A stretch of DNA of 31,239 nucleotides from a virus. Location of the stretch: positions 1 to 31,239 of the IMG/VR virus record IMGVR_UViG_3300046170_000169, one strand, 5' to 3'. Under the pieces are notes generated by a model. It was given only the letters and a program-made list of their open reading frames with translations. It was not told the origin of the DNA and ran no database searches. Both the position numbers and the translations under genes were made by a program. Below, piece after piece: positions 817 through 31,239 of the stretch. How positions within the stretch are numbered: the stretch's first letter is position 1; each line of letters starts with the position of its first letter.

Positions 817-3657
817 ATGGCACTCAATCTATCCACACTGACCAGCCCAGCGACATCTGGTGACGTTCTAGCAGAAGCCCTGACGACCGCTGACTTCCTT
901 GAGAACGTCCCAGTGTTACGCAACTTGGCTCGGGGTTCACAAAAGGGCGGCGATGCGAAACAAGACGTTGCCCTAAACCAGCCTAAAGCGTTGCCGCTGA
1001 TTGATGGTAAAGGCTATTGTTATCTTCCGGTCACCACTGGGAACGCTCCGGCTGTTACCTTTCCGACTATTGGAGCCAACGATGACTTCGTGTTAGAGAT
1101 GGATGTTTATTTAGTTAGTGGCACTAATCTACACTTTGTGAGTGGAGCTAACGGAGACCATAGATTAGCAATTTATAACGGTTCTTTCTACATTGGCGGT
1201 TTTAGTGCTTCTTTAAGTTCACCTTTAGCTTTGGGAGTTTCAAATATTAAAATTGAAAGGACTTCTGGAACAATCACCCTAAAACAAAACGATGCTGTGA
1301 TAGCGTCAAGGGCTAGTAGCTCGGCTTTAACTTTTACACACCTTTCTTTCAACGGTCAGTTTTCAACAAGTATTCTTCCACTAAACGGATACATCCAGAA
1401 AGCCACGTTATCTATCGGCGGCACTGAGCAACTCAACATCGACTTCACGGCCATTGGTCGCCACGGGGACACCAAGATAAAATGCGACTCCGGCCAAGTG
1501 GTAACAATCAACCAATCCGGCAACGACCCCGCCACGGTTATCAAGAAGCCTGTCTTGCGGTTCGATGGGACTAACGATGGTCTTCAAGGCCTGTTCAATC
1601 AGACAATTACAGAGGGCGCTTATATGTTCGCGGCATTTAGTGTGCTTGGAGACGGCGGTGAGCAATACACTAGAGTTTTTCAAACGCTGAACGCTGGAAA
1701 CAATACTCCAATTTTATTTAGTTCAAGGAATCAGTCAGAGAATAATATATACTGGTATAGTTCTAACAATACGTGGCAAAAAGCGCACGATGGAATGTAT
1801 GACGATGAACGAGGAGACATTTTACATGAATTGTCATTCACAGATGGACTTCAAAAGAGTCGAGTAAACAATGCCGATGCTTATTCAGCTACGCTGTCGG
1901 AAAGCAACACCGAAATGTTTTCTTACGGCATAGCTAACAATCACTCAAGCGGCTCTTTAAGCGCAGCCATCGACCTAGAATACCTCGCTCTCTTCCCTGC
2001 AACCATCACCGACGCTCAAGCTGACGACGTTCGTAATTATATTAATAATAGGAACAACGTGTTTGACCTAAAGGACGGCTTTGGCTACTACTTCTTTGAC
2101 CCGCAGATTTTCCCTATCGTTGACCCTGCTGATTTTGTTTCTTACTGGAACGGTAATATTGTTGGTTCTGATCTCACACTTAACGCTTCTGTTAGCCAAT
2201 CTGTAGTCAACCACCGACCAACACGGGATGGCTACAAGGTTACATTTAACGACAACGCTGACCACCTTGTGGTTGCAAGTCCACTGTCAGGAGGGCAAGC
2301 TGGCTGGCAAATCGTAGGCACGTCACTCGGAACCTTTGCGTATCGCGTGAATGCAAATGCGGTCACTGAGCTGAATCTTTTGGGTAACGCTGGAACTACA
2401 CGGAGGGTAGGAGAATCTTTTGGTATGCTACTTTTACCAGAATCGGCGACAGGTGCTGACATCGAGGCGGCAAGGAAGCTTCTGATTGACCGAGGCGCGG
2501 CTGATTCAGTGGTTTCAGGCAGCTATGGGTCAGTGTGGAATAATAGAACAGACATTGTTGAATTTAGACATAGTAGTTTTCAAAATGCATTAAATTTAAT
2601 TAAAGCTTTTAAGGGCCAAACCGCTCTCACCTCATTCAGCGCGATACATGCTGAAATCTGTACTAATTTTTCCCAAACATGGCAAGACTGCTCCTCACTT
2701 CAACAATTTCCGGCGGGCGCCAAGCTAGGCACGGAGGCGACAGGCACCGTAATATTTGATAACGCATGGAACTCTAGTGGTATTACGTCGTTTAGCACAC
2801 CGTTGCCTACAGCGACTTCAGTAAGTGTCGCATGGGGTTACTGTTCAGCTTTAGCTGAGTTCAATTTAGATTCATTGCCGCTAGTTTTAAACGTTTCTCA
2901 GGCTTGGCGTAACACCGGATTGACCAGTTTTAATACAAATTTACCCTCTACAAATACAGTGACCTTTGCGTGGTATCAAGCTACATCACTAAGTTCATTT
3001 GGAGCGGTAGACATCAAGAGCTGCACTGACTTTAACAGCGCATGGCGGGATTGCTCGGCCCTTACATCATTTCCAAGCGGCGCAAAGCTAGGAACTTCGG
3101 CGAGCAATGTGAACTTTACGGCTGCATGGCGAAACACTGGACTTACAAGTTTCCCTAACGACATCGATTTAAGTAAAGGTAATAATTTCCATGCGACATG
3201 GCTTGGCGATCCAATAACTAGTTTTAGCACGCCCTTGCCCGCTGCTTTAGATATAAGTTACGCTTGGTATCAATGCTCTTCTTTATCTAGTTTTTCGACA
3301 CCCGTGATAAAATCAGAAACTTTAGGGTTCGCTTGGTTAGGATGCAGCGCACTTACAGATTTTGCCGAAGGCTTGTTTGATAACTGGAATCCATCAATTA
3401 TTTCCACCGGAATCTTTAATGGCACATGGGACGGCTGTACATCACTCACCGCAATCAGCGTGGAAAATATACTGGTCAGCATAGATGCATCAAACCAGCA
3501 CGGGACAGACGACGGCACATCCACAGGCAATCCACTACAAGACAGCGGAATAGATATTGACTATGATGGAACGGCGCTCAGTGCCGCGACGAACACCGCA
3601 GTGGACTCACTCAAGGCCAAGGGCTGGAGCATCATTGTTAACAACGTAACACTTTAA
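817..3657 (+). CDS. Large tail adhesin with LamG-like and BspA-like repeats
   Basis: This 946-residue protein starts 3 bases after the previous stop without a Shine-Dalgarno sequence. Roughly residues 60-420 look like one or two LamG/concanavalin-type beta sandwiches. From about residue 605 to 880 there are degenerate repeats of about 22-25 residues with the pattern (S/A)AWxxCSxLxSFP, for example AWRDCSALTSFP, AWYQCSSLSSF and AWRNTGLTSF. This is the BspA/DUF285 type of leucine-rich-like repeat found in bacterial surface proteins and some phage tail proteins. There is no signal peptide. It is probably the distal tail fibre or receptor-binding protein. The repeats would form the interaction surface; that function is inference. 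Confidence 0.75.
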   Translation: MALNLSTLTSPATSGDVLAEALTTADFLENVPVLRNLARGSQKGGDAKQDVALNQPKALPLIDGKGYCYLPVTTGNAPAVTFPTIGANDDFVLEMDVYLVSGTNLHFVSGANGDHRLAIYNGSFYIGGFSASLSSPLALGVSNIKIERTSGTITLKQNDAVIASRASSSALTFTHLSFNGQFSTSILPLNGYIQKATLSIGGTEQLNIDFTAIGRHGDTKIKCDSGQVVTINQSGNDPATVIKKPVLRFDGTNDGLQGLFNQTITEGAYMFAAFSVLGDGGEQYTRVFQTLNAGNNTPILFSSRNQSENNIYWYSSNNTWQKAHDGMYDDERGDILHELSFTDGLQKSRVNNADAYSATLSESNTEMFSYGIANNHSSGSLSAAIDLEYLALFPATITDAQADDVRNYINNRNNVFDLKDGFGYYFFDPQIFPIVDPADFVSYWNGNIVGSDLTLNASVSQSVVNHRPTRDGYKVTFNDNADHLVVASPLSGGQAGWQIVGTSLGTFAYRVNANAVTELNLLGNAGTTRRVGESFGMLLLPESATGADIEAARKLLIDRGAADSVVSGSYGSVWNNRTDIVEFRHSSFQNALNLIKAFKGQTALTSFSAIHAEICTNFSQTWQDCSSLQQFPAGAKLGTEATGTVIFDNAWNSSGITSFSTPLPTATSVSVAWGYCSALAEFNLDSLPLVLNVSQAWRNTGLTSFNTNLPSTNTVTFAWYQATSLSSFGAVDIKSCTDFNSAWRDCSALTSFPSGAKLGTSASNVNFTAAWRNTGLTSFPNDIDLSKGNNFHATWLGDPITSFSTPLPAALDISYAWYQCSSLSSFSTPVIKSETLGFAWLGCSALTDFAEGLFDNWNPSIISTGIFNGTWDGCTSLTAISVENILVSIDASNQHGTDDGTSTGNPLQDSGIDIDYDGTALSAATNTAVDSLKAKGWSIIVNNVTL

Positions 3658-11570: not shown

Positions 11571-11629
11571 GCGTTATAAAAGTTGAACTAAACCCTGACG
11601 AGATCGCAATCTGTCAAATTTTAGGCAGA

Positions 11630-12034
11630 ATGCGGTCTCTGATTGCTAGAAACTCAGGCGTCAAAGATGCCAAGGTTGGGACACAGGACGGCGCTAGTGC
11701 AGACGTTTTGGGCGTGATGGCAGAATACGCATTTGCTAAACGCTACAACACTTTCCCAGACCTTGGTTTAACACCTAGAAGCGGTAGCGCTGACGGCATC
11801 CTCAATGGTAAGCGGTATGATATTAAATCAACTACCTACAAAACTGGCAGGCTACTATCTACGCTGAAAGTTAATCCTGATGTTGATATTTATATTTTAG
11901 GAATAGTTGGAGACCTAGATGTTGATTTTATCGGGTGGGCATCAAAGGAGCAGCTAGTGCGTGAAGAAAACATTATTGATCTAGGCCACGGCCAAGGATA
12001 CGCGCTTACTCAAGACAAGTTAACCTGGTTTTAA
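11630..12034 (+). CDS. PD-(D/E)XK-like phage protein, N-terminus probably longer
   Basis: 134 residues from the first canonical ATG. DVLGVMAEYAFAKRYN, SGSADGILNGKRYDIKST and GWASKEQLVREENIIDLGHG are features of a phage family that looks like a restriction-endonuclease fold (Glu in the first helix, Asp and D-x-K in the next strands). The same frame is open upstream to 11564 and reads SVIKVELNPDEIAICQILGR, which resembles the usual N-terminus, but no ATG, GTG or TTG precedes it; codons there are TTA, AGC, GTT, ATA. The stop overlaps the methyltransferase start (TAATG). Possible nuclease; function unproven. Confidence 0.6.
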   Translation: MRSLIARNSGVKDAKVGTQDGASADVLGVMAEYAFAKRYNTFPDLGLTPRSGSADGILNGKRYDIKSTTYKTGRLLSTLKVNPDVDIYILGIVGDLDVDFIGWASKEQLVREENIIDLGHGQGYALTQDKLTWF

Positions 12035-12537
12035 TGAATGAGTTGGCTTTATTCGCAGGCGCTGGTGGAGGAATACTCGGAGGACATCTCCTTGGATGGC
12101 GCACGGTGTGCGCTGTGGAATGGGAAGCATACCCCGCAAGCGTCTTGGTTGCCCGCCAAAACGACAAAACATTGCCAGCTTTCCCAGTCTGGGATGACGT
12201 TCAAACCTTTGACGGAAGACCATGGCGAGGCCGTGTTGACGTCGTTTCTGGAGGCTTTCCCTGCCAAGACATCAGTTGCGCCGGGAAGGGCGAAGGAATC
12301 GAAGGTGAGCGGTCATCCATGTGGAAACACATGGCGCGAATCATTGGAGAAATTCGACCTCGATACGCATACGTGGAAAACTCACCAATGCTTGTGGGAC
12401 GAGGACTTACAACCGTCCTCAGTGATCTTGCCGAAATGGGGTATGATGCTAAATGGGGTATTGTGGGAGCGCATAACTGCTCCGCTCCCCATAAAAGGGA
12501 CAGGATCTGGATCGTGGCCCACACCAAGGAGTTGTAG
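12034..12537 (+). CDS. C5 cytosine DNA methyltransferase, catalytic N-terminal part
   Basis: 167 residues carrying the SAM-binding motif I (FAGAGGG, 7-13), the catalytic motif IV (GGFPCQDIS, Cys77 being the nucleophile), motif VI-like VENSP (Glu115) and motif VIII (HKRDRIWIVA). It stops at TAG 12535-12537 without a target-recognition domain or motifs IX and X. Those are encoded in the +1 frame just downstream, with an ATG at 12542. The whole enzyme is therefore either two subunits, as in M.AquI, or one protein made by +1 frameshifting. It would methylate cytosines in phage DNA against host restriction. Confidence 0.8.
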   Translation: MNELALFAGAGGGILGGHLLGWRTVCAVEWEAYPASVLVARQNDKTLPAFPVWDDVQTFDGRPWRGRVDVVSGGFPCQDISCAGKGEGIEGERSSMWKHMARIIGEIRPRYAYVENSPMLVGRGLTTVLSDLAEMGYDAKWGIVGAHNCSAPHKRDRIWIVAHTKEL

Positions 12538-13273
12538 CGCAATGGCCGCAACCATAACACCAGAATCAGCGAATGACCCTAGTAGGTTTCCAAACCTAGA
12601 AACCGTGGTGGGAAAAGTAACATGGCCAACGCCATGCACTAGAGATTACAAAGGGGCAAACGCAGTCGAAGGTTTGACTCGCAATGATGGCAAGTCTCGC
12701 ATGGATCAATTGCCGAATGCTGTTGCTTATGATCAAAAATCATGGTCAACGCCTCAAGCCAGAGACTGGAAAGGCCCAAGCGGTCGAAGCATGAAGGGTG
12801 AGGAAAACGACTTGCCGAATCAAGTAAAGCAATCAGCACCCACAGGCCAACTCAACCCCTCATGGGTCGAGTGGCTCATGGGTTGGCCAATCGGCTGGAC
12901 TAGCATGGAGGCTATCACCGAGCTAGACTGGCGCGACTGGTCGGACGATCCTGCTGATGAGGATTCAAAGCAAACGTGGGCAACTCCTAGCGCAAACAAA
13001 ACAACTAAAAGCGGCGAAATTGTAAATTCAGACGGCACGGCTTGGGATGGAATTAGCAAACCACACAGCAAAACAACAGGGGAGCCAATTCAAACAGCAT
13101 TGAGTGATCAAGTGGCAATGAACGGCGGGAGCAAACAAGCGAAAATCCCCCGTGTTGCCACAGGCATTAAAAACCGAGTCGGCAGGCTCAAAGCCATTGG
13201 AAACGGCCAAGTTCCAGCAGTGGCAGCGCTTGCATGGGATATTTTAAGCAAAGGTAATCATGCCTCAGAATAA
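12038..13273 (+). CDS. C5 methyltransferase target-recognition/motif X part in the +1 frame
   Basis: This frame is open for 411 codons from ATG 12038; a separate subunit could instead start at ATG 12542, 5 bases after the stop of the catalytic part (243 residues). It contains repeated (W)(P/S/A)TP blocks (SWPTP, TWPTPCTRDYKG, SWSTPQARDWKG, TWATPS), QLNPSWVEWLMGWPIGW, and near the C-terminus VATGIKNRVGRLKAIGNGQVPAVAALAW, the motif X of C5 methyltransferases. The segment before about 12500 overlaps the catalytic gene in another frame yet stays open and reads like a protein (TWKTHQCLW, LPKWGMMLNG). Whether that part is translated is unknown. Confidence 0.7.
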   Translation: MSWLYSQALVEEYSEDISLDGARCALWNGKHTPQASWLPAKTTKHCQLSQSGMTFKPLTEDHGEAVLTSFLEAFPAKTSVAPGRAKESKVSGHPCGNTWRESLEKFDLDTHTWKTHQCLWDEDLQPSSVILPKWGMMLNGVLWERITAPLPIKGTGSGSWPTPRSCSAMAATITPESANDPSRFPNLETVVGKVTWPTPCTRDYKGANAVEGLTRNDGKSRMDQLPNAVAYDQKSWSTPQARDWKGPSGRSMKGEENDLPNQVKQSAPTGQLNPSWVEWLMGWPIGWTSMEAITELDWRDWSDDPADEDSKQTWATPSANKTTKSGEIVNSDGTAWDGISKPHSKTTGEPIQTALSDQVAMNGGSKQAKIPRVATGIKNRVGRLKAIGNGQVPAVAALAWDILSKGNHASE

Positions 13274-20685: not shown

Positions 20686-21305
20686 TGAGCAAGATCATTA
20701 CCGACATCGACATCGCCAACCAAGCGCTTGGCTATTTGGGAGAGCAGACAATTGCAACAATGTCTGAAAACACCAAGGAGGCACGGCAAGTCTCGCTCCA
20801 CTTTGACCAGACGCTCCGTGAGATCATGGAGAAGCATAGGTGGTCAGTAGGCCGGAAACGAACTAGAATGACGCTATTCGGCGCAACACCAGATTTCGGG
20901 TGGTCTTACGCTCACATTATCCCAGAAGACTGTCTTAGGGTCTTAGATTTGTTTGAGCTTTCAGAAGAGACGCCCACACCAAACCCAGTTCCTATTCGCA
21001 AGTTTGAAAAGGAGCCTGGGCTTATCCTTAGCAACATTAAGCATTGCGGCCTAGTCTACATCAAAGAGGTAATCTCATCAGATCTATCACCACTTCTTGT
21101 TAAAGCTCTAGCAATCAAGCTGGCATCAAAGCTAGCAATTCCCCTCGGTGAGTCCAGACTGGCCGGCGATCTATCTAATATGGCCGACAATGCCATCAAA
21201 GACGCATGGCTGAGCGACGCAAGACAGTCACGATCAGGAGAAAACTCTGACTTCCTCCAAAGATCTGAAGAAAACCACGCCGAAAGCGGAAGATACAATG
21301 CCTGA
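20685..21305 (+). CDS. Tail tubular protein A / adaptor (T7 gp11-like)
   Basis: 206 residues. IDIANQALGYLGEQTIATMSE, then ARQVSLHFDQTLREIMEKHRWSVGRKRTRM and GWSYAHIIPEDCLRVLDLFE are the family pattern of the head-to-tail adaptor that docks below the portal. It sits between capsid and nozzle genes, as in T7. The start lies in the T-tract of the capsid terminator. Confidence 0.88.
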   Translation: MSKIITDIDIANQALGYLGEQTIATMSENTKEARQVSLHFDQTLREIMEKHRWSVGRKRTRMTLFGATPDFGWSYAHIIPEDCLRVLDLFELSEETPTPNPVPIRKFEKEPGLILSNIKHCGLVYIKEVISSDLSPLLVKALAIKLASKLAIPLGESRLAGDLSNMADNAIKDAWLSDARQSRSGENSDFLQRSEENHAESGRYNA

Positions 21306-23964
21306 GTTTTTGCAGTCTAACTTTAATGGTGAGTGGTCTCCGCTCATGCTTGGCCGTGTAGAGCTGTCACGATACGCTACATCGCTAAGAACGATGGAGA
21401 ACTTTGCCCCGACCATACCTGGCGGCGCGAGAAAGCGACCTGGCACTGAATACATTGGCGAAGTCAGAGACTCATCAAAGAAAACACGGCTTGAAAGCTT
21501 CACGTTTTCTAATGAGCAATCTTATTTGCTGGAATTTAGCGATATAAAGTTACGGTTCTGGAGAAACGGGGTGTTATTAGGCGATATTAAAACAACTCCT
21601 TACACTGAGGATGATGTGTTTAGCCTTAGAATGACATCGACAAACGACATTGTTTATATCGCCTCACCTAATCATGCTCCTTATAAGCTAACCAGAACAT
21701 CTGACACTACGTTTGATTTTGCAGCGCTTGAGTTTGAGAACCAGCCGTTTGAAGATCAGAATTTAACAACGACAACAATTACACCCTCTGGGACAACTAG
21801 CTCGGTAACACTTACTTCATCTGCTCCTTTATTTGTGTCTGAAATGGTGGGAAGTTCTTTTGAGATAACTCATTTAAAAGCAAGAGAGGTTTATGAAACC
21901 ACCGCTGATAGAACTAATGGTAGCTATGTTGTTTGGAATTCAACAGGAACTTATTCTCAAGGAGATATTATTTTAGATCAGACTGGAGGAGCATTAGATT
22001 ACTATTTGTGCATTTCTGCTTATAACGGACATAATAATCCAAATAATGATCCTATTTCTAACTATCTTTCTAACTTTGAAGCTGGGATTATTGCAAAAGA
22101 CAAAAACAATAACTCTATTAACTATTATGTAAGAGGTGAGTGGACACTAAGGACTGAGGGAAGCTGGAACAATGAGTGGGTTTTACAAGAGTCTTATGAT
22201 AATCAATCTACTTGGACAACAAGGCATTCATTGGTTTCTGATAATGGTTCTGATAATTACACGAGAGAAGGAGATGAGACAGGAAATCCTGTTTGGTTAA
22301 GACTTATTCTTTTTAGTGGAAACAGTGAAAGAGACCCCGTTACCTTTACTATTGCAGAAACAGAAATATCTGGGGAAGTGTTGATCAACTCTGTTAATAC
22401 AGGCAACAATACCGCAACCGCTACTGTTGTTGCCACAAAACCTTTGTTTAGCACTGATGCTACAAGTCTTTGGGCTGAGAATGAATGGAATCCTAGAAAA
22501 AAGTATCCTAAGCAGGTGTTCTTTAAAAACAACCGGCTTTGTTTTGCTTCTACTAAGGCAGACAACCAAGCTATTTGGGGAAGCGAGGTAGATAAATGGG
22601 ATAACTTTAAGCGTGGCATACAAGAAGACTCGCAGCCATTTAAAGACGTTCTAAGGACCGGCAACCAAGATCCGATACAATGGGTATCCGAGCAGTCAAA
22701 GACGCTTCTAGGGCTATCCTCGCAGATAAGAAACCTAACCGGTGAAGACGGGTCGTCTATTCTAGCGCCAGGTAAAAACAGCTCGGCAAGACAAGCCGGT
22801 CGCGGCGCTGCTGACCTAGAGCCGGTAGAGGTTGATGACTTTACATTTTACGTCCAGCTAGGAGGCAGGATTATTAGAGGTCTGACAAACGATTATGAGC
22901 GTGGCGTTTACGCTGCTGCTGATATGACTAGAGAGGCTGAACATGTAACTAGAGGCGGCGTCAAGCAAATGGCGTTTCAGCTAAACCGTGTTTCTACGCT
23001 CTACGCCGTCACAGGAGAGGGTATCGCTGCTTGCCTAGTGTTTGATCCAGAAGTGGAGAAAATGGGCTGGTATCGCCTTAAAACGCAAGGAGGGACAATT
23101 GAGTCAGTTGCCATCCTTCCGGCTACCGGAGAAGAAGACGAGGTCTACTTTGTAGTAAAGAGAACGATCAACGGAAGCACCAAGCGCTACATTGAGAGGC
23201 TAAAGAACGATCAGATCAGAATTCAAGATGATGGCCTGCAAGACGATATGTTCTATGTCGATTGCGGCACTACAATTACCGGAGCTAATATTTCTACAAA
23301 TTCTACAACTGATGTTACCACTATTGCTGGATCGACTCACCTAGAAGGTAAAGAAATACAGATTCTTTTAGACGGGGACTATTTTGGCAAGAAAACAGTA
23401 AGCAGCGGGTCTGTTACAATACCTACTATTACTAATAATGATTTCAATAACGCATCTTCATACAAAGTCGGGGATCGCGTAAGGTTTTTGGCTAGCGGAA
23501 CCTATACTTATTTTGTTTGTGTTCTTGCATACACTGGAGGTGATTCTTCGCAAACTGATCCGGCATTAGCGGTAGATTCAAATTCAAATCCATACTTTGC
23601 TGCTAGCAAGGCAACTTGTGGCTTATCTATTGAGGCTAAGCTATGGCCAATGCCGTTAGAGGGCATTACAGCGTCAGGAACGACCTCTGGAGACAAGAAG
23701 CGAGTCAAAGAGATTACGATTGACGTTATGAACTCACTCGGAATCCAGACAAAAGACTCACCGGATGACACTAAAGAGCCTACAGATCTTACTCCAAGAC
23801 AGTCTGATGCAGACCTTGGATCATCGCCGGCACTCTACAGCGGCAAGCTTGAAGTCAGAAATACTTTGCCAAGATCGTTTGATGGTAATGTTTTTTATCA
23901 ATCAGATATTCCTTTTGGCGTATTTATCCGTAACATCATTACTAAATGGGAGAAGACCAGCTAA
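21298..23964 (+). CDS. Tail tubular protein B / nozzle (T7 gp12-like)
   Basis: 888 residues, overlapping the adaptor by 8 bases. The N-terminus SNFNGEWSPLMLGRVELSRYATSLRTMENFAPTIPGGARKRPGT is the strongly conserved opening of this family in podoviruses. An inserted beta-rich region (about 160-360) is Asn/Thr/Ser-rich and more AT-rich in DNA than the rest, and may be a later insertion exposed on the tail. The core resumes with PKQVFFKNNRLCFA and includes GVKQMAFQLNRVSTLYAVTGEG. It forms the tail tube tip. Confidence 0.85.
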   Translation: MPEFLQSNFNGEWSPLMLGRVELSRYATSLRTMENFAPTIPGGARKRPGTEYIGEVRDSSKKTRLESFTFSNEQSYLLEFSDIKLRFWRNGVLLGDIKTTPYTEDDVFSLRMTSTNDIVYIASPNHAPYKLTRTSDTTFDFAALEFENQPFEDQNLTTTTITPSGTTSSVTLTSSAPLFVSEMVGSSFEITHLKAREVYETTADRTNGSYVVWNSTGTYSQGDIILDQTGGALDYYLCISAYNGHNNPNNDPISNYLSNFEAGIIAKDKNNNSINYYVRGEWTLRTEGSWNNEWVLQESYDNQSTWTTRHSLVSDNGSDNYTREGDETGNPVWLRLILFSGNSERDPVTFTIAETEISGEVLINSVNTGNNTATATVVATKPLFSTDATSLWAENEWNPRKKYPKQVFFKNNRLCFASTKADNQAIWGSEVDKWDNFKRGIQEDSQPFKDVLRTGNQDPIQWVSEQSKTLLGLSSQIRNLTGEDGSSILAPGKNSSARQAGRGAADLEPVEVDDFTFYVQLGGRIIRGLTNDYERGVYAAADMTREAEHVTRGGVKQMAFQLNRVSTLYAVTGEGIAACLVFDPEVEKMGWYRLKTQGGTIESVAILPATGEEDEVYFVVKRTINGSTKRYIERLKNDQIRIQDDGLQDDMFYVDCGTTITGANISTNSTTDVTTIAGSTHLEGKEIQILLDGDYFGKKTVSSGSVTIPTITNNDFNNASSYKVGDRVRFLASGTYTYFVCVLAYTGGDSSQTDPALAVDSNSNPYFAASKATCGLSIEAKLWPMPLEGITASGTTSGDKKRVKEITIDVMNSLGIQTKDSPDDTKEPTDLTPRQSDADLGSSPALYSGKLEVRNTLPRSFDGNVFYQSDIPFGVFIRNIITKWEKTS

Positions 23965-26532: not shown

Positions 26533-29500
26533 ATGGAACCTGACTATCAAGGACAGCCAATAACAACTCCTGACGCGCCTCCATTTGTGCCAGGTGTAAC
26601 AGATCAGAGGTATACTCCAGAAAAAGAGAAATCTACTGAGCCTATGACAGTTCCTGATGATCCTCCGTATATTGAAGGGATTACAGATGAAAGGTTTGCT
26701 CCAAAAGTTGAAGAATCTGCAGAAATTAAAAATAAACAGGAAAAACTTGATTATAATCAGTTGTTAAAAGATGCAGAAAACAATATTTCTGATGTTATAA
26801 ATTTTGATGATTCTGTTCAAGAAGAGCCTCAATTGTCCCAAATTGAAAGTGAAAAGCTTGTTGCTCAAAACAATTGGGTAAAAGAATCTTTGGGTAATAT
26901 TGATAGCGCTCTTTTAGATTACGAAAAATTTTTACCAGAATCAACCAAGCCAGTTAAAAACCGAGCATTAATTAGAGCTACTATGGAGGCCGAGCTTGGA
27001 TACGACCCTCCAACAATCTCTGAATACGAAATAGGCAGAGGACAAGCTTACAAGCAATTGTTTGGTAAAGATCTCTCTGAAGACCTAGGAGATCCTGAGC
27101 AAGCTTTTGTTGGCGCTTTAATTAAAAGAGCTACAGAAAAAAGAGATCAAGGTGTTTTTGATGAAACTATCCGTAATGAGGCTTTGCTTTCCACATTAAC
27201 TGGGTGGAGTAAATATGACGCTTCTTGGGGTGAGGCAGCTAAAGGTGATCCTGTTTATCAAAAAGATCCAGCAGCAGCCGCTAATAAATTCAAATCGTTT
27301 AAGCAAGCTTTTGAAGATGAGTTTAATGATGTTATACCTATTGTCAGAAATCTTGATAAGTTTATTAGGAATAATGACATGGATTCTTCTTTGCGTTTAA
27401 TAGAAGATTTAGACGAAGAAGAATTTTCAAGAACCGCTAAACTTTTAGGTTTTATTGAGAAGCAGACCTTGGCAACTAAAGGAGAAGAGGGGCTTTTGTC
27501 TAACTTGGCCAAGTCTACGGGAAGAGATTTTGAAAGCTTTTCAAGAAAATTCAAAGAAGGTTTTTTTGATTTATTGTCAGGCATTTCGGCTGGTTCTACT
27601 GGAGCAGATTTTGTAGCCGAAGATGTTCTCTATCGCGATAAAGTTAATGGGTTTTTAGCCGAGATTAGAAGGTTTAGAGATCAACGTGATCCAATTAAAC
27701 TTTTAGCAGAAGAAGATACCTTTTTATCTAGTGCCGAAAAAGCATTGTATGCCACTCCTGGCGTTGGATTTAGTATTGCCGGAAGTGTTTTAACTGGGCC
27801 TGCTGGAACAATGGGTCTTCTCATGGAGTCAAACCAAGAGGATTACTATTTGAGAGCAATAGACGCTGGGGTTTCTAGGGAAGAGTCTAATAAGCTCGCA
27901 GCTACTGTTGGATCTCCAATTGCGTTACTTCAGTTTATACCTGAGCGAATTGGATTAGGAGCAGTAACTAGAAAGTTACCTGTTTTAGACAATGTTGTTA
28001 ATAAGATTACCCAGAAACATTTTAGGGTAACTTTACAAGCGTTAGCTAGAAGTGGAGCAGAGACCACAACTGAAGAAATCCAAGCAATTCTTTCAGAAGT
28101 TGGAAATGACGTTTTAAATGGTCTAAAAAGCGATATACCAGAAGCTGACTGGGATGCTCACTGGGACAATTTTGGCTCTAGAAATCTGGAAACATTTTTA
28201 TCTATATCTCCATATGCTTCATTGGGGTCTTTTGTTAGAGATAGAGGTGTAGACAAATCAATTGCCATGGCTAATGAGGCAAGCACTGATGAACTTGTTG
28301 CAAGTGGATACAAGAAAGAAAAAGTTCAGAACTTTCAAGAATCAGAGGATATTGGCAAACGCAAAGCGTTTTTTGAGATGCTTGAGTCTCAAGACCCTAC
28401 AAGACCGGAGACTAAAGAAGCAGTTGATAATTTAGCCAAGCTAAACGAAATGGCTAAGAAAACTCAAGCAGAGTATAGTCAGTTAAGAATTTCGCCTGGT
28501 GTCAGAATGGACCCTAAAAAGAAAGGGTATGAAGTTTATAATACAGAAAGTGGCGATATTATCGCTACCTTAGAGACTGCTCAACAGGCTACAGAAACTG
28601 TGTTTGAAATCTTTGGCGTAAAGGAAAGCCAGAGACAGGCAGCGTTTGACGAGCTGCTTTCTAAGTTTGAGGCTGGCAGGCTTGATGTAGATGAGTCTGG
28701 GGAAATGGTGGAGATTGAGACTCGGACGTTTACGCAAGCTGACGCTTTAGTTGAACTACCTGGATCAGATGCTCGCATTGAGACTGAGGCTAAGCTTATT
28801 GAGCAAAGAAACGGCGGGACAGGAGAAGTAACCGAAGAGGTCATGTCTGAGGGACAGACTATTTTTGGTGTTTATATACCTGCTGGTCAGATGGGCCGCA
28901 AAGAAGCTGCCACTAAGATTTTTAATGGATCAAGTATTTTAACGCTTATACATGAGCGAGGTCATGGCAAACGAAGAATATTGATGGCAAATGGCAAATG
29001 GTCTAGGTCTCAGCAAATTGGATCTCTTAAAGCCCTAGACGGAATGCTTGATGAGGGAGATAGGTTTCTTCCGGCTACTTTTGATGAAATGTCAGAAAGT
29101 AATCAAGAGGTAGCTTTAGACGAAGCTGTCGCTGAGCTAGCCGAGGTGTTAGCCCTTAGAACGCGAAATGGGAAGAAGTCTAAAATGAGGCAGCTTCTTA
29201 GTAAAAACCTTTCTGCAATGGTTCGTTCGCGTAGACCTGGCGCGGTTCAGCTAAAGGCATTTGTTGACGCAATAAAAGAATTTTTTGGTTTAGCGCTTCG
29301 CAGGGCAGCAGTAATGAAGAAGGCAGAACGAGAAGGAAAACTTAGCTCTGCCCAGCTTGATGCTCTTTCCGATATGCTTGTTGGCAAAACTTCGCAGGAA
29401 TCATTTGAATCAGAGCGTGATGCCGTGCCTGTTCAGATGGTAGACGGGAAAATGGTGGATACTCCGTTTTCTTTAGCAAAAGATGTTAAGCCTTACAAAG

Positions 29501-31239
29501 ATAGAGATGGAGACGAGCAAGGAGAGCCTCTTACTGAAACAGAAATCAAAGAAGGTATTGAAGATGAGCCTGGGACTTTAGCTGATGTCGAGATTGATGA
29601 TAATAAGTTTAGCGATAGCCAAGCTGGGGAAGTGTCTTTTTCTATTGCGGGAAAAGCCCCAATAATTACAAGAAGCTCATTAAAAGGAAAAAAGAAGTTT
29701 GTTTACTTTTCAGACAGAACAAGAGTTGGTGTTTATACTGGCTTAAATCCAAAAAGTGGAATCAAAATCGATCTTCAAGGTGGTCCAAAGTATCCTTTTA
29801 TTAAAGGACACGGAAAAGCAAAAGCTGGATGGGCTTTTACTACTGAAGGTATGTTTACTAGATTTGCAAAAAGGGTAGCATCTACTGACGGAATTGGTCT
29901 TGTTACTCTTTATTCAAAAGAAAACCTTAGAGCCAATCCTACTTTTTTAAAGGCTTACGTTGAAGAGGTGAAATGGGCAATTAAAGACGGGTCTCTTAAT
30001 GAGGCAGATTTTCTTGAAGTAACAAATAACTTGCGGGAAGCTACGGTAAACTCAAAGAAGTTTAAAGAAAACTCGGAGTGGGCATCTTTGTTTCAAAAAG
30101 AATGGAAAACGGTAAGCGATTTTTCTATTGCTATGGAAACAGCGACCTTTGAAATTAGGTCTGGAATGTTTTTTGCTTACAACGCTAAGAAAGTTGGTGA
30201 AAATAAAGGCTCAAAAATTGGAGGTGATAAACTTGTAGCAAGAGGGTTTCCAAACATTTCTAAAATGGTAGATCTTTTTACTGATCCTGATCTTGATCAA
30301 TTAGAGACTGGAACTATTGTTTCTGCTGTTCAGTTTGAACCTGGTCAAAAATCATCTTCAAAAGCTGAAGAAATTGGAGCTGAAAACCATCTTAGTTACC
30401 CTGTTGTAATTAAAGGCAAAGGGTTAGGTTTTTTTAAAAATCCTATTCATCTTAGGAAAGTATTACCTGTTAAAGCAGGGAAAACTGAGAGAAATATGAT
30501 GCGGTCTGCTGAAACAAGCATGGGATCGGCATCTTTTTCCCTTGGTCGGGCCGAAGTCACGCCTACAGACACTACCCAAACTTTCCCAACTAAGGATGGC
30601 GGGGTTGTTGGTCCTGCTAGTTTTTCAATTTCTGCTTTCCACGGCACTCCACACAAAGTTGATAAATTCAGCACTGAGCATATTGGCACGGGTGAGGGCG
30701 CTCAGGCGTATGGCTGGGGACTTTATTTTGCTCAGGATAAAGATGTTGCACAACAATATCGAATTGCTCTTGCTTATGATCCAGATAAGCAACGTATTAA
30801 CGGCAGACAAATTAACGACGAATACAGCAAATATAATACAGCTACGGCTACTAGTGTAGATTACCAGATCTTAGAGGGTCTTGAGAGGCTAATGATGCAC
30901 GATAGTCCTGCCGAGGTTATTGAAATGTTTGAAGAACAGGGGTATAGCCAAAAAGCAATTAGCTATTTTAAAGATTCAAAATACGAGACATTTGGTGGCC
31001 TCTACACCGTAGAACTCAACGTCGAACAGGACGAGCTTCTTGATTGGAATAAGCCGATGAGTGAGCAAAGTGAGTCAATAAGGTCTAAGATGCTAACCAT
31101 ATTACAAGGAGATGCGTCAATGTTTCTGGATGTGAGGGAAGCCGCTAATCGATTAAAACAAGGTGAATACTTGGACGGTAGACAAGCTTACATCCAACTT
31201 CAATCAACTATAGGGGCAAAAAGAGCTTCCGAAGCCCTT
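26533..31239 (+). CDS. Giant polyvalent ejection protein with zincin-like and ADP-ribosyltransferase domains (3' partial)
   Basis: The frame is open from ATG 26533 to the window end (1569 codons, no stop). Residues 9-29 and 37-57 are a 28-residue-period repeat (PxTxPDxPPxxxGxTDxRxxP). Residues about 390-480 contain Gly/Ala-rich hydrophobic segments (YATPGVGFSIAGSVLTGPAG) that may be membrane-active. HERGH at 807-811, with EAVAELAEV downstream, is a zincin-like HExxH motif. Residues about 1036-1335 are a domain with GGPKYPF and GWAFTT that I recall from other phage polyvalent proteins. From 1368, FHGTPHKVDKF and GTGEGAQAYGWGLYFA are the first two motifs of the polyvalent ADP-ribosyltransferase; the last lies beyond the window. 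Position equals T7 gp16, so it is likely delivered with the DNA to modify host proteins. Confidence 0.8.
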   Translation, partial: MEPDYQGQPITTPDAPPFVPGVTDQRYTPEKEKSTEPMTVPDDPPYIEGITDERFAPKVEESAEIKNKQEKLDYNQLLKDAENNISDVINFDDSVQEEPQLSQIESEKLVAQNNWVKESLGNIDSALLDYEKFLPESTKPVKNRALIRATMEAELGYDPPTISEYEIGRGQAYKQLFGKDLSEDLGDPEQAFVGALIKRATEKRDQGVFDETIRNEALLSTLTGWSKYDASWGEAAKGDPVYQKDPAAAANKFKSFKQAFEDEFNDVIPIVRNLDKFIRNNDMDSSLRLIEDLDEEEFSRTAKLLGFIEKQTLATKGEEGLLSNLAKSTGRDFESFSRKFKEGFFDLLSGISAGSTGADFVAEDVLYRDKVNGFLAEIRRFRDQRDPIKLLAEEDTFLSSAEKALYATPGVGFSIAGSVLTGPAGTMGLLMESNQEDYYLRAIDAGVSREESNKLAATVGSPIALLQFIPERIGLGAVTRKLPVLDNVVNKITQKHFRVTLQALARSGAETTTEEIQAILSEVGNDVLNGLKSDIPEADWDAHWDNFGSRNLETFLSISPYASLGSFVRDRGVDKSIAMANEASTDELVASGYKKEKVQNFQESEDIGKRKAFFEMLESQDPTRPETKEAVDNLAKLNEMAKKTQAEYSQLRISPGVRMDPKKKGYEVYNTESGDIIATLETAQQATETVFEIFGVKESQRQAAFDELLSKFEAGRLDVDESGEMVEIETRTFTQADALVELPGSDARIETEAKLIEQRNGGTGEVTEEVMSEGQTIFGVYIPAGQMGRKEAATKIFNGSSILTLIHERGHGKRRILMANGKWSRSQQIGSLKALDGMLDEGDRFLPATFDEMSESNQEVALDEAVAELAEVLALRTRNGKKSKMRQLLSKNLSAMVRSRRPGAVQLKAFVDAIKEFFGLALRRAAVMKKAEREGKLSSAQLDALSDMLVGKTSQESFESERDAVPVQMVDGKMVDTPFSLAKDVKPYKDRDGDEQGEPLTETEIKEGIEDEPGTLADVEIDDNKFSDSQAGEVSFSIAGKAPIITRSSLKGKKKFVYFSDRTRVGVYTGLNPKSGIKIDLQGGPKYPFIKGHGKAKAGWAFTTEGMFTRFAKRVASTDGIGLVTLYSKENLRANPTFLKAYVEEVKWAIKDGSLNEADFLEVTNNLREATVNSKKFKENSEWASLFQKEWKTVSDFSIAMETATFEIRSGMFFAYNAKKVGENKGSKIGGDKLVARGFPNISKMVDLFTDPDLDQLETGTIVSAVQFEPGQKSSSKAEEIGAENHLSYPVVIKGKGLGFFKNPIHLRKVLPVKAGKTERNMMRSAETSMGSASFSLGRAEVTPTDTTQTFPTKDGGVVGPASFSISAFHGTPHKVDKFSTEHIGTGEGAQAYGWGLYFAQDKDVAQQYRIALAYDPDKQRINGRQINDEYSKYNTATATSVDYQILEGLERLMMHDSPAEVIEMFEEQGYSQKAISYFKDSKYETFGGLYTVELNVEQDELLDWNKPMSEQSESIRSKMLTILQGDASMFLDVREAANRLKQGEYLDGRQAYIQLQSTIGAKRASEAL

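Follow-up and report, generated by a model that had tools for sequence, protein, structure and literature searches.

Background

Two-subunit split C5-cytosine DNA methyltransferases (MTases) are already known: in M.EcoHK31I the large chain carries motifs I-VIII and X and the small chain motif IX, and in M.AquI the large chain carries motifs I-VIII and the small chain the distal variable region and motifs IX-X (PMC3404938). Here, we analyzed a putative MTase locus in the virus record IMGVR_UViG_3300046170_000169 of IMG/VR, given as one strand of 31,239 bases (hereafter the window, meaning that whole stretch), and found that its catalytic gene, alpha (frame 0), is overprinted along its length by a +1-frame gene, beta, that both frames are conserved and under selection among relatives, and that the two probably encode separate polypeptides of one C5-cytosine DNA MTase. 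The phage family to which the locus belongs may be seen, by analogy, as a variant of the described split enzymes. The small chain of M.EcoHK31I is reported, in a paper of 1995, to be encoded within the large-chain gene in another frame; for M.AquI we know of neither an overprinted N-terminal part nor a long overlap. Long same-strand overlaps of two conserved proteins are, to our knowledge, rare outside small viruses.

Results and discussion

The locus beside the described enzymes

The two open reading frames (ORFs) and their main segments are as follows.

12034..12537, plus strand: alpha, predicted catalytic part of a C5-cytosine MTase, 167 amino acids (aa); ORF from ATG 12034 to TAG 12537 with motifs I (FAGAGG), IV (GGFPCQDIS), VI (VENS) and VIII (RDRIWI), ending right after VIII
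12038..13273, plus strand: beta, +1-frame ORF of 411 aa; first 166 codons overprinted on alpha, running 736 nucleotides (nt) past the alpha stop
12032..12040, plus strand: TAATGAATG, in whose sequence the upstream ORF stop, alpha ATG (12034) and beta ATG (12038) interlock; about 120 of 130 loci have ATGAATGAG or an AATGAG equivalent to it
12515..12997, plus strand: beta variable region with WPTP/WSTP/WATP modules, from alignments (in relatives, alpha reads VA(N/D)A... here)
12851..12901, plus strand: motif IX-like segment LNPSWVEWLMGWPIGWT in beta, conserved in beta alignments and in frame with I-VIII and X in actinophage single-chain MTases
13148..13237, plus strand: motif X PRVATGIKNRVGRLKAIGNGQVPAVAALAW, here carried by the beta frame

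The first-pass annotation, made from the letters of the window, had placed motifs I-VIII in the frame starting at 12034 and the recognition domain and motif X in a +1 frame open from 12038 through the catalytic gene, and so it proved, with motif IX in +1 as well. PF00145 matches alpha residues 4-166 (E 3.5e-31; profile positions 4-164 of 324), that is, the catalytic half only, and of the motifs of that family I, IV, VI and VIII are present in alpha, with IX and X both in +1 instead of on the same chain. Alpha further matches phrog_363 (E 4e-54), and full-length beta matches phrog_1008 (E 7.4e-25), as well as profiles built from distant (E 7.9e-42) and from near beta proteins (E 2e-102); Pfam and NCBIfam hold no model covering beta, and a PDB profile search with beta gave no match. 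Its overprinted half alone (12038-12520) matches phrog_1008 (E 8.6e-9) and, by tblastn, 13 phage records at 33-52% identity, and the segments TWKTHQCLW...LPKWGMMLNG, which the first-pass annotation attributed to database proteins, read as stated in +1 and do have such counterparts. From these motifs, alpha and beta of the window are predicted to act as a C5-cytosine MTase.

In its division of motifs the window resembles M.AquI (CYCGRG), with I-VIII in alpha and the variable region and IX-X in beta, and it differs in about 166 extra overprinted residues at the beta N-terminus, which are conserved in relatives, and in a 500-nt overlap. Most relatives share the motif layout of M.EcoHK31I (YGGCCR), with I-VIII and X in alpha and IX in beta, a likeness in described layout, from which the window departs by having motif X in beta. 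The nesting reported for the M.EcoHK31I small chain is paralleled by the near-complete alpha/beta overlap of relatives and, in the window, by the overlap 12038-12537, where beta starts four bases after alpha, overlaps all of it and runs past its stop. The family follows the M.EcoHK31I layout and the window that of M.AquI; the M.AquI likeness drawn by the first-pass annotation stands for the division of motifs and falls for the overlapping architecture, which is that of M.EcoHK31I. Plasmid searches for an EcoHK31I-like restriction-modification system gave few matches, none of which read as such a system.

Like the window, phages of Paenibacillus larvae (Rani, RANI_51; Tadhana, gp55; phrog_1008 or 'internal gene') have a +1-nested beta, annotated inside the MTase gene and named 'DNA methyltransferase' or 'hypothetical' without interpretation, but theirs starts about 59 codons into alpha, whereas in the window beta begins at the start of alpha and also has motif X. 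The homologous beta of HB10c2 matches phrog_1008 at E 1e-74. In the actinophage single-chain MTase ShiLan gp70, LPTP modules, LAPAFSEWMMGWPAGWV and IGNGVVPQQ are homologous to the beta C-half, which unlike in the window is fused in the alpha frame, with only the beta N-half left in +1.

Both frames are conserved and under selection

In the window alone, the open +1 frame is weakly surprising (probability 0.066 under synonymous shuffling); the significance comes from relatives, 128 of which were obtained by protein search of IMG/VR and GTDB genomes. Of 116 distinct loci, 114 keep the +1 frame free of stops for 160 codons, where synonymous shuffles predict 6.6 such loci, and the +2 frame of the same loci contains 2-17 stops. 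The shuffle null is not biased, because 176 control segments from the same loci match its prediction (7.06 stops observed, 7.19 expected, none of the segments open). Across 52 independent close MTase pairs, not one of 1310 differences that are synonymous in frame 0 introduces a stop in +1, where about 77 would be expected; control genes, by contrast, gain +1 stops as often as predicted. Even once stops are set aside, the amino-acid changes in +1 are less severe than expected (BLOSUM -0.68 vs -1.02 and -1.15 vs -1.59, standard error about 0.06); this substitution-effect test replaced a comparison of +1 identity with the shuffle null, in which third positions shared between frames lifted +2 as well. 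Further, 118 of 119 sequences use GGG for the alpha glycine codon at 12439, although GGG makes up about 14% of glycine codons overall, because the nearly invariant W-G of beta is spelled by this codon. Openness, the substitution tests and this codon column together identify the +1 frame as a gene, and we regard dual coding of the locus as practically certain, in agreement with the first-pass view of a conserved layout and not an error.

12038..12537, plus strand: dual-coded region, with selection acting on alpha in frame 0 and on beta in +1 (openness test, substitution tests, GGG column)
12439..12441, plus strand: alpha Gly136 codon GGG, forming W-G of beta (118 of 119 aligned sequences, as above)

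Exceptions to openness are L125, L126 and L242, in which indels swap the two frames; L100, with one stop in alpha; L128, which is truncated; and L127, a distant MTase whose 14 stops in +1 equal the expected number. Beyond the single indel in L125, L126 and L242 (in the MTase gene), as also in L217, the alpha frame continues as beta and vice versa, both remaining open; these indels are either assembly errors or a natural route that moves segments between subunits. An in-frame alpha stop with beta still open was also seen in L100 (directly after the catalytic PC), L099 and L071, which are possibly alpha pseudogenes or sequence errors.

Family anatomy and the window clade

In most relatives the alpha and beta starts lie four bases apart (ATGAATGAG), and the two stops fall at most 34 nt apart in 100 of 121 loci. 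Instead of holding motifs I-X in one frame, most carry I-VIII and X in frame 0 and IX in the open +1 frame (e.g., L006, L009, and L024), and in this common form one 75-bp stretch encodes both motif IX and motif X, the same bases being read as LNPxWVEWLMGWPxGWTDLKPLEMDKF in beta and as GRVAxGVAxRVDRLKAIGNGQVP in alpha. Besides this beta motif IX segment, the conserved parts of beta are MSWLFSQALVEE..., CG.TW..S...D..T.SW.T..C...DL..SS.TLP.WGM...G, and the WPTP modules. Beta also occurs in more distant phage MTases (Paenibacillus, Mycobacterium, Synechococcus, and metagenomic), where it mostly starts about 25-60 codons into alpha and matches phrog_1008 at E values down to 1e-74. Hundreds of related phage sequences share the double coding, usually annotated as one gene; annotators have retained either alpha or beta alone or, for some Paenibacillus phages, the two together ('g50 Internal gene'). 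The overlap is about 170-400 codons long and occurs in phages of Proteobacteria, Firmicutes, Actinobacteria, cyanobacteria, and Bacteroidetes; our literature search found no description of it in phages.

In the window and L001-L004 (the window clade) alpha ends just after motif VIII, beyond which frame 0 fills with stops, the truncation being the same in all although the stop codons differ, and beta runs on to end in a true motif X. The old alpha frame is still visible in the window as MGRVAHGLANRLD followed by a stop.

12853..12903, plus strand: decayed remnant QPLMGRVAHGLANRLD and stop, left in the alpha frame from the former motif X region and facing beta motif IX (dual translation; relatives read EPNVGRVAHGVAHRVDRLKSIGNGQVP)

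By sequence comparison, the window clade is best read as one in which the frame-0 tail decayed and motif X was gained at the beta end, giving an M.AquI-like split. L048 and L079, with motif X in beta too, show this state independently, and the tree needs about three changes for the placement of motif X.

Modules of the form LLPTPxxxDGxxGG were observed in L245, L246, and L244 (Arthrobacter, Gordonia, and Mycobacterium phages). The frame that reads them is +1 in one phage but 0 in another, and ShiLan uses both along a single gene; the array looks able to change frame. In L249 (Mycobacterium phage Llama, gp74/gp75) both the annotated MTase gene and the beta match are split in two, which suggests an indel affecting both frames.

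Two probable polypeptides of one enzyme, and the alternatives

We infer that the locus works from one mRNA, on which ribosomes reaching TAATGAATG would start at either ATG and so translate both chains. Alpha would supply the S-adenosylmethionine-binding and catalytic motifs I-VIII, and beta, starting four bases later in +1, would supply motif IX and, in the window clade, also motif X, with target-recognition elements probably coming from its WPTP-module region. The chains would then assemble into an active enzyme modifying phage DNA, and the purpose of that methylation may be anti-restriction, i.e., protection of phage DNA from host restriction.

The assignment of beta to the enzyme turns on motif IX, which has the consensus LxPRExxRLxGFP, is missing from alpha, and is resembled by LNPxWVEWLMGFPxGW of beta. 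An actinophage peptide joining the LMG(F/W)P segment to motif X is present in 570 phage records, and in Mycobacterium phage ShiLan the motif IX-like segment lies in the same frame as motifs I-VIII. The distant-beta profile matches ShiLan twice: the C-half of the profile aligns to residues 197-353 in frame 0 (E 2.8e-16), and the N-half aligns in +1 (E 1.7e-25). It gave no match in six control genes (three frames) or in the ordinary MTase L127. In-frame fusion of the beta C-half to alpha in actinophage enzymes argues for one enzyme, and so does the move of motif X from alpha to beta about three times. Several points weigh on the other side: PF00145 does not score the beta motif IX, which was assigned by the LMG(F/W)P pattern and the fused actinophage enzymes and not by structure; AlphaFold2 models of beta are poor (predicted local distance difference test scores of 54 and 59); and a motif IX role leaves the first ~150 overprinted residues of beta unexplained. 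As those residues have no recognizable MTase motif and no sequence match among solved structures, beta could be a real overprinted protein outside the MTase, e.g., a separate, independently selected phage factor, which we consider unlikely in view of the motif and fusion evidence.

Less probable again is a single-chain enzyme made by programmed +1 frameshifting near 12520-12537, which would join I-VIII to the recognition region and IX-X. In the window and L001-L004 alpha does end immediately after VIII, where fusion would give I-X in order, and in the window AAGGAG stands just before the TTG TAG C stop; however, no slippery or stimulatory motif is shared around the alpha stop, the upstream 500 bp of open +1 and the conserved beta ATG are left unexplained, and most relatives have motif X in alpha, so that fusion is not needed.

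ATG 12038 (AATGAG) is kept in nearly all relatives, and the +1 ATG is retained even where alpha starts upstream (L001, L002, L005, and L030). In L001 and L002, where alpha begins further upstream, the beta ATG has a Shine-Dalgarno-like sequence of its own (GAAAGGG or AAAGGGGGG), which supports a start at 12038 and not at 12542.

12526..12544, plus strand: AAGGAG and ATG 12542, at which a short beta of 243 aa might start internally; this ATG is not conserved and is absent from L001-L003 beta

The first-pass annotation had drawn its two-subunit enzyme from ATG 12542; the two polypeptides remain the best reading, and that start does not. A short beta from there as the working subunit, with the upstream +1 half a leftover, would have AAGGAG ten bases before its ATG and would yield an M.AquI-like pair, but it is very improbable given that none of L001-L003, the closest relatives, has a methionine at this position, that their upstream +1 half is conserved and stop-free, and that in L001 and L002 the AATGAG start has its own Shine-Dalgarno-like sequence; sequence conservation thus favors 12038 as the beta start. 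The weakest alternative, that codon bias or the alpha amino-acid sequence leaves +1 open incidentally, or that the assembly is in error, would fit the unremarkable probability in the window alone but is already refuted by the relatives and can be dismissed, since the calibrated shuffles rule out codon bias, the same layout recurs in independent assemblies and isolate phage genomes, which rules out misassembly, and both the open frames and the lack of new +1 stops far exceed expectation.

Significance of the overlap

We are inclined, if only by a little, to see here a large, old, and mostly unrecognized class of phage MTases that hold both subunits in the same DNA in two frames, with motifs IX and X sharing bases, and in which single indels and 3' extensions move segments, so that subunits split, re-partition or fuse by frame exchange, the window clade being one such re-partition. 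Because annotations usually keep one frame only, many records would lack half of the enzyme, and expressing the annotated 'methyltransferase' alone may fail. The locus offers a direct test of the joint optimization of two frames, and of subunit splitting and fusion.

Neighboring genes

Upstream of alpha, a small gene (11609-12034) whose stop overlaps the alpha start at TAATGAATG has phrog_18407 (unknown function, E 2e-5) as its sole match, with no homologue in the other loci fetched up to that stage. The window also carries genes for RecT, YqaJ, terminase, and a head-tail connector, a 946-aa ORF (817-3657) without any Pfam or PHROG match, an 888-aa ORF (21298-23964) without a Pfam match in a Pfam-only scan, and an ORF of at least 1569 aa (26533-31239) that runs off the contig end.
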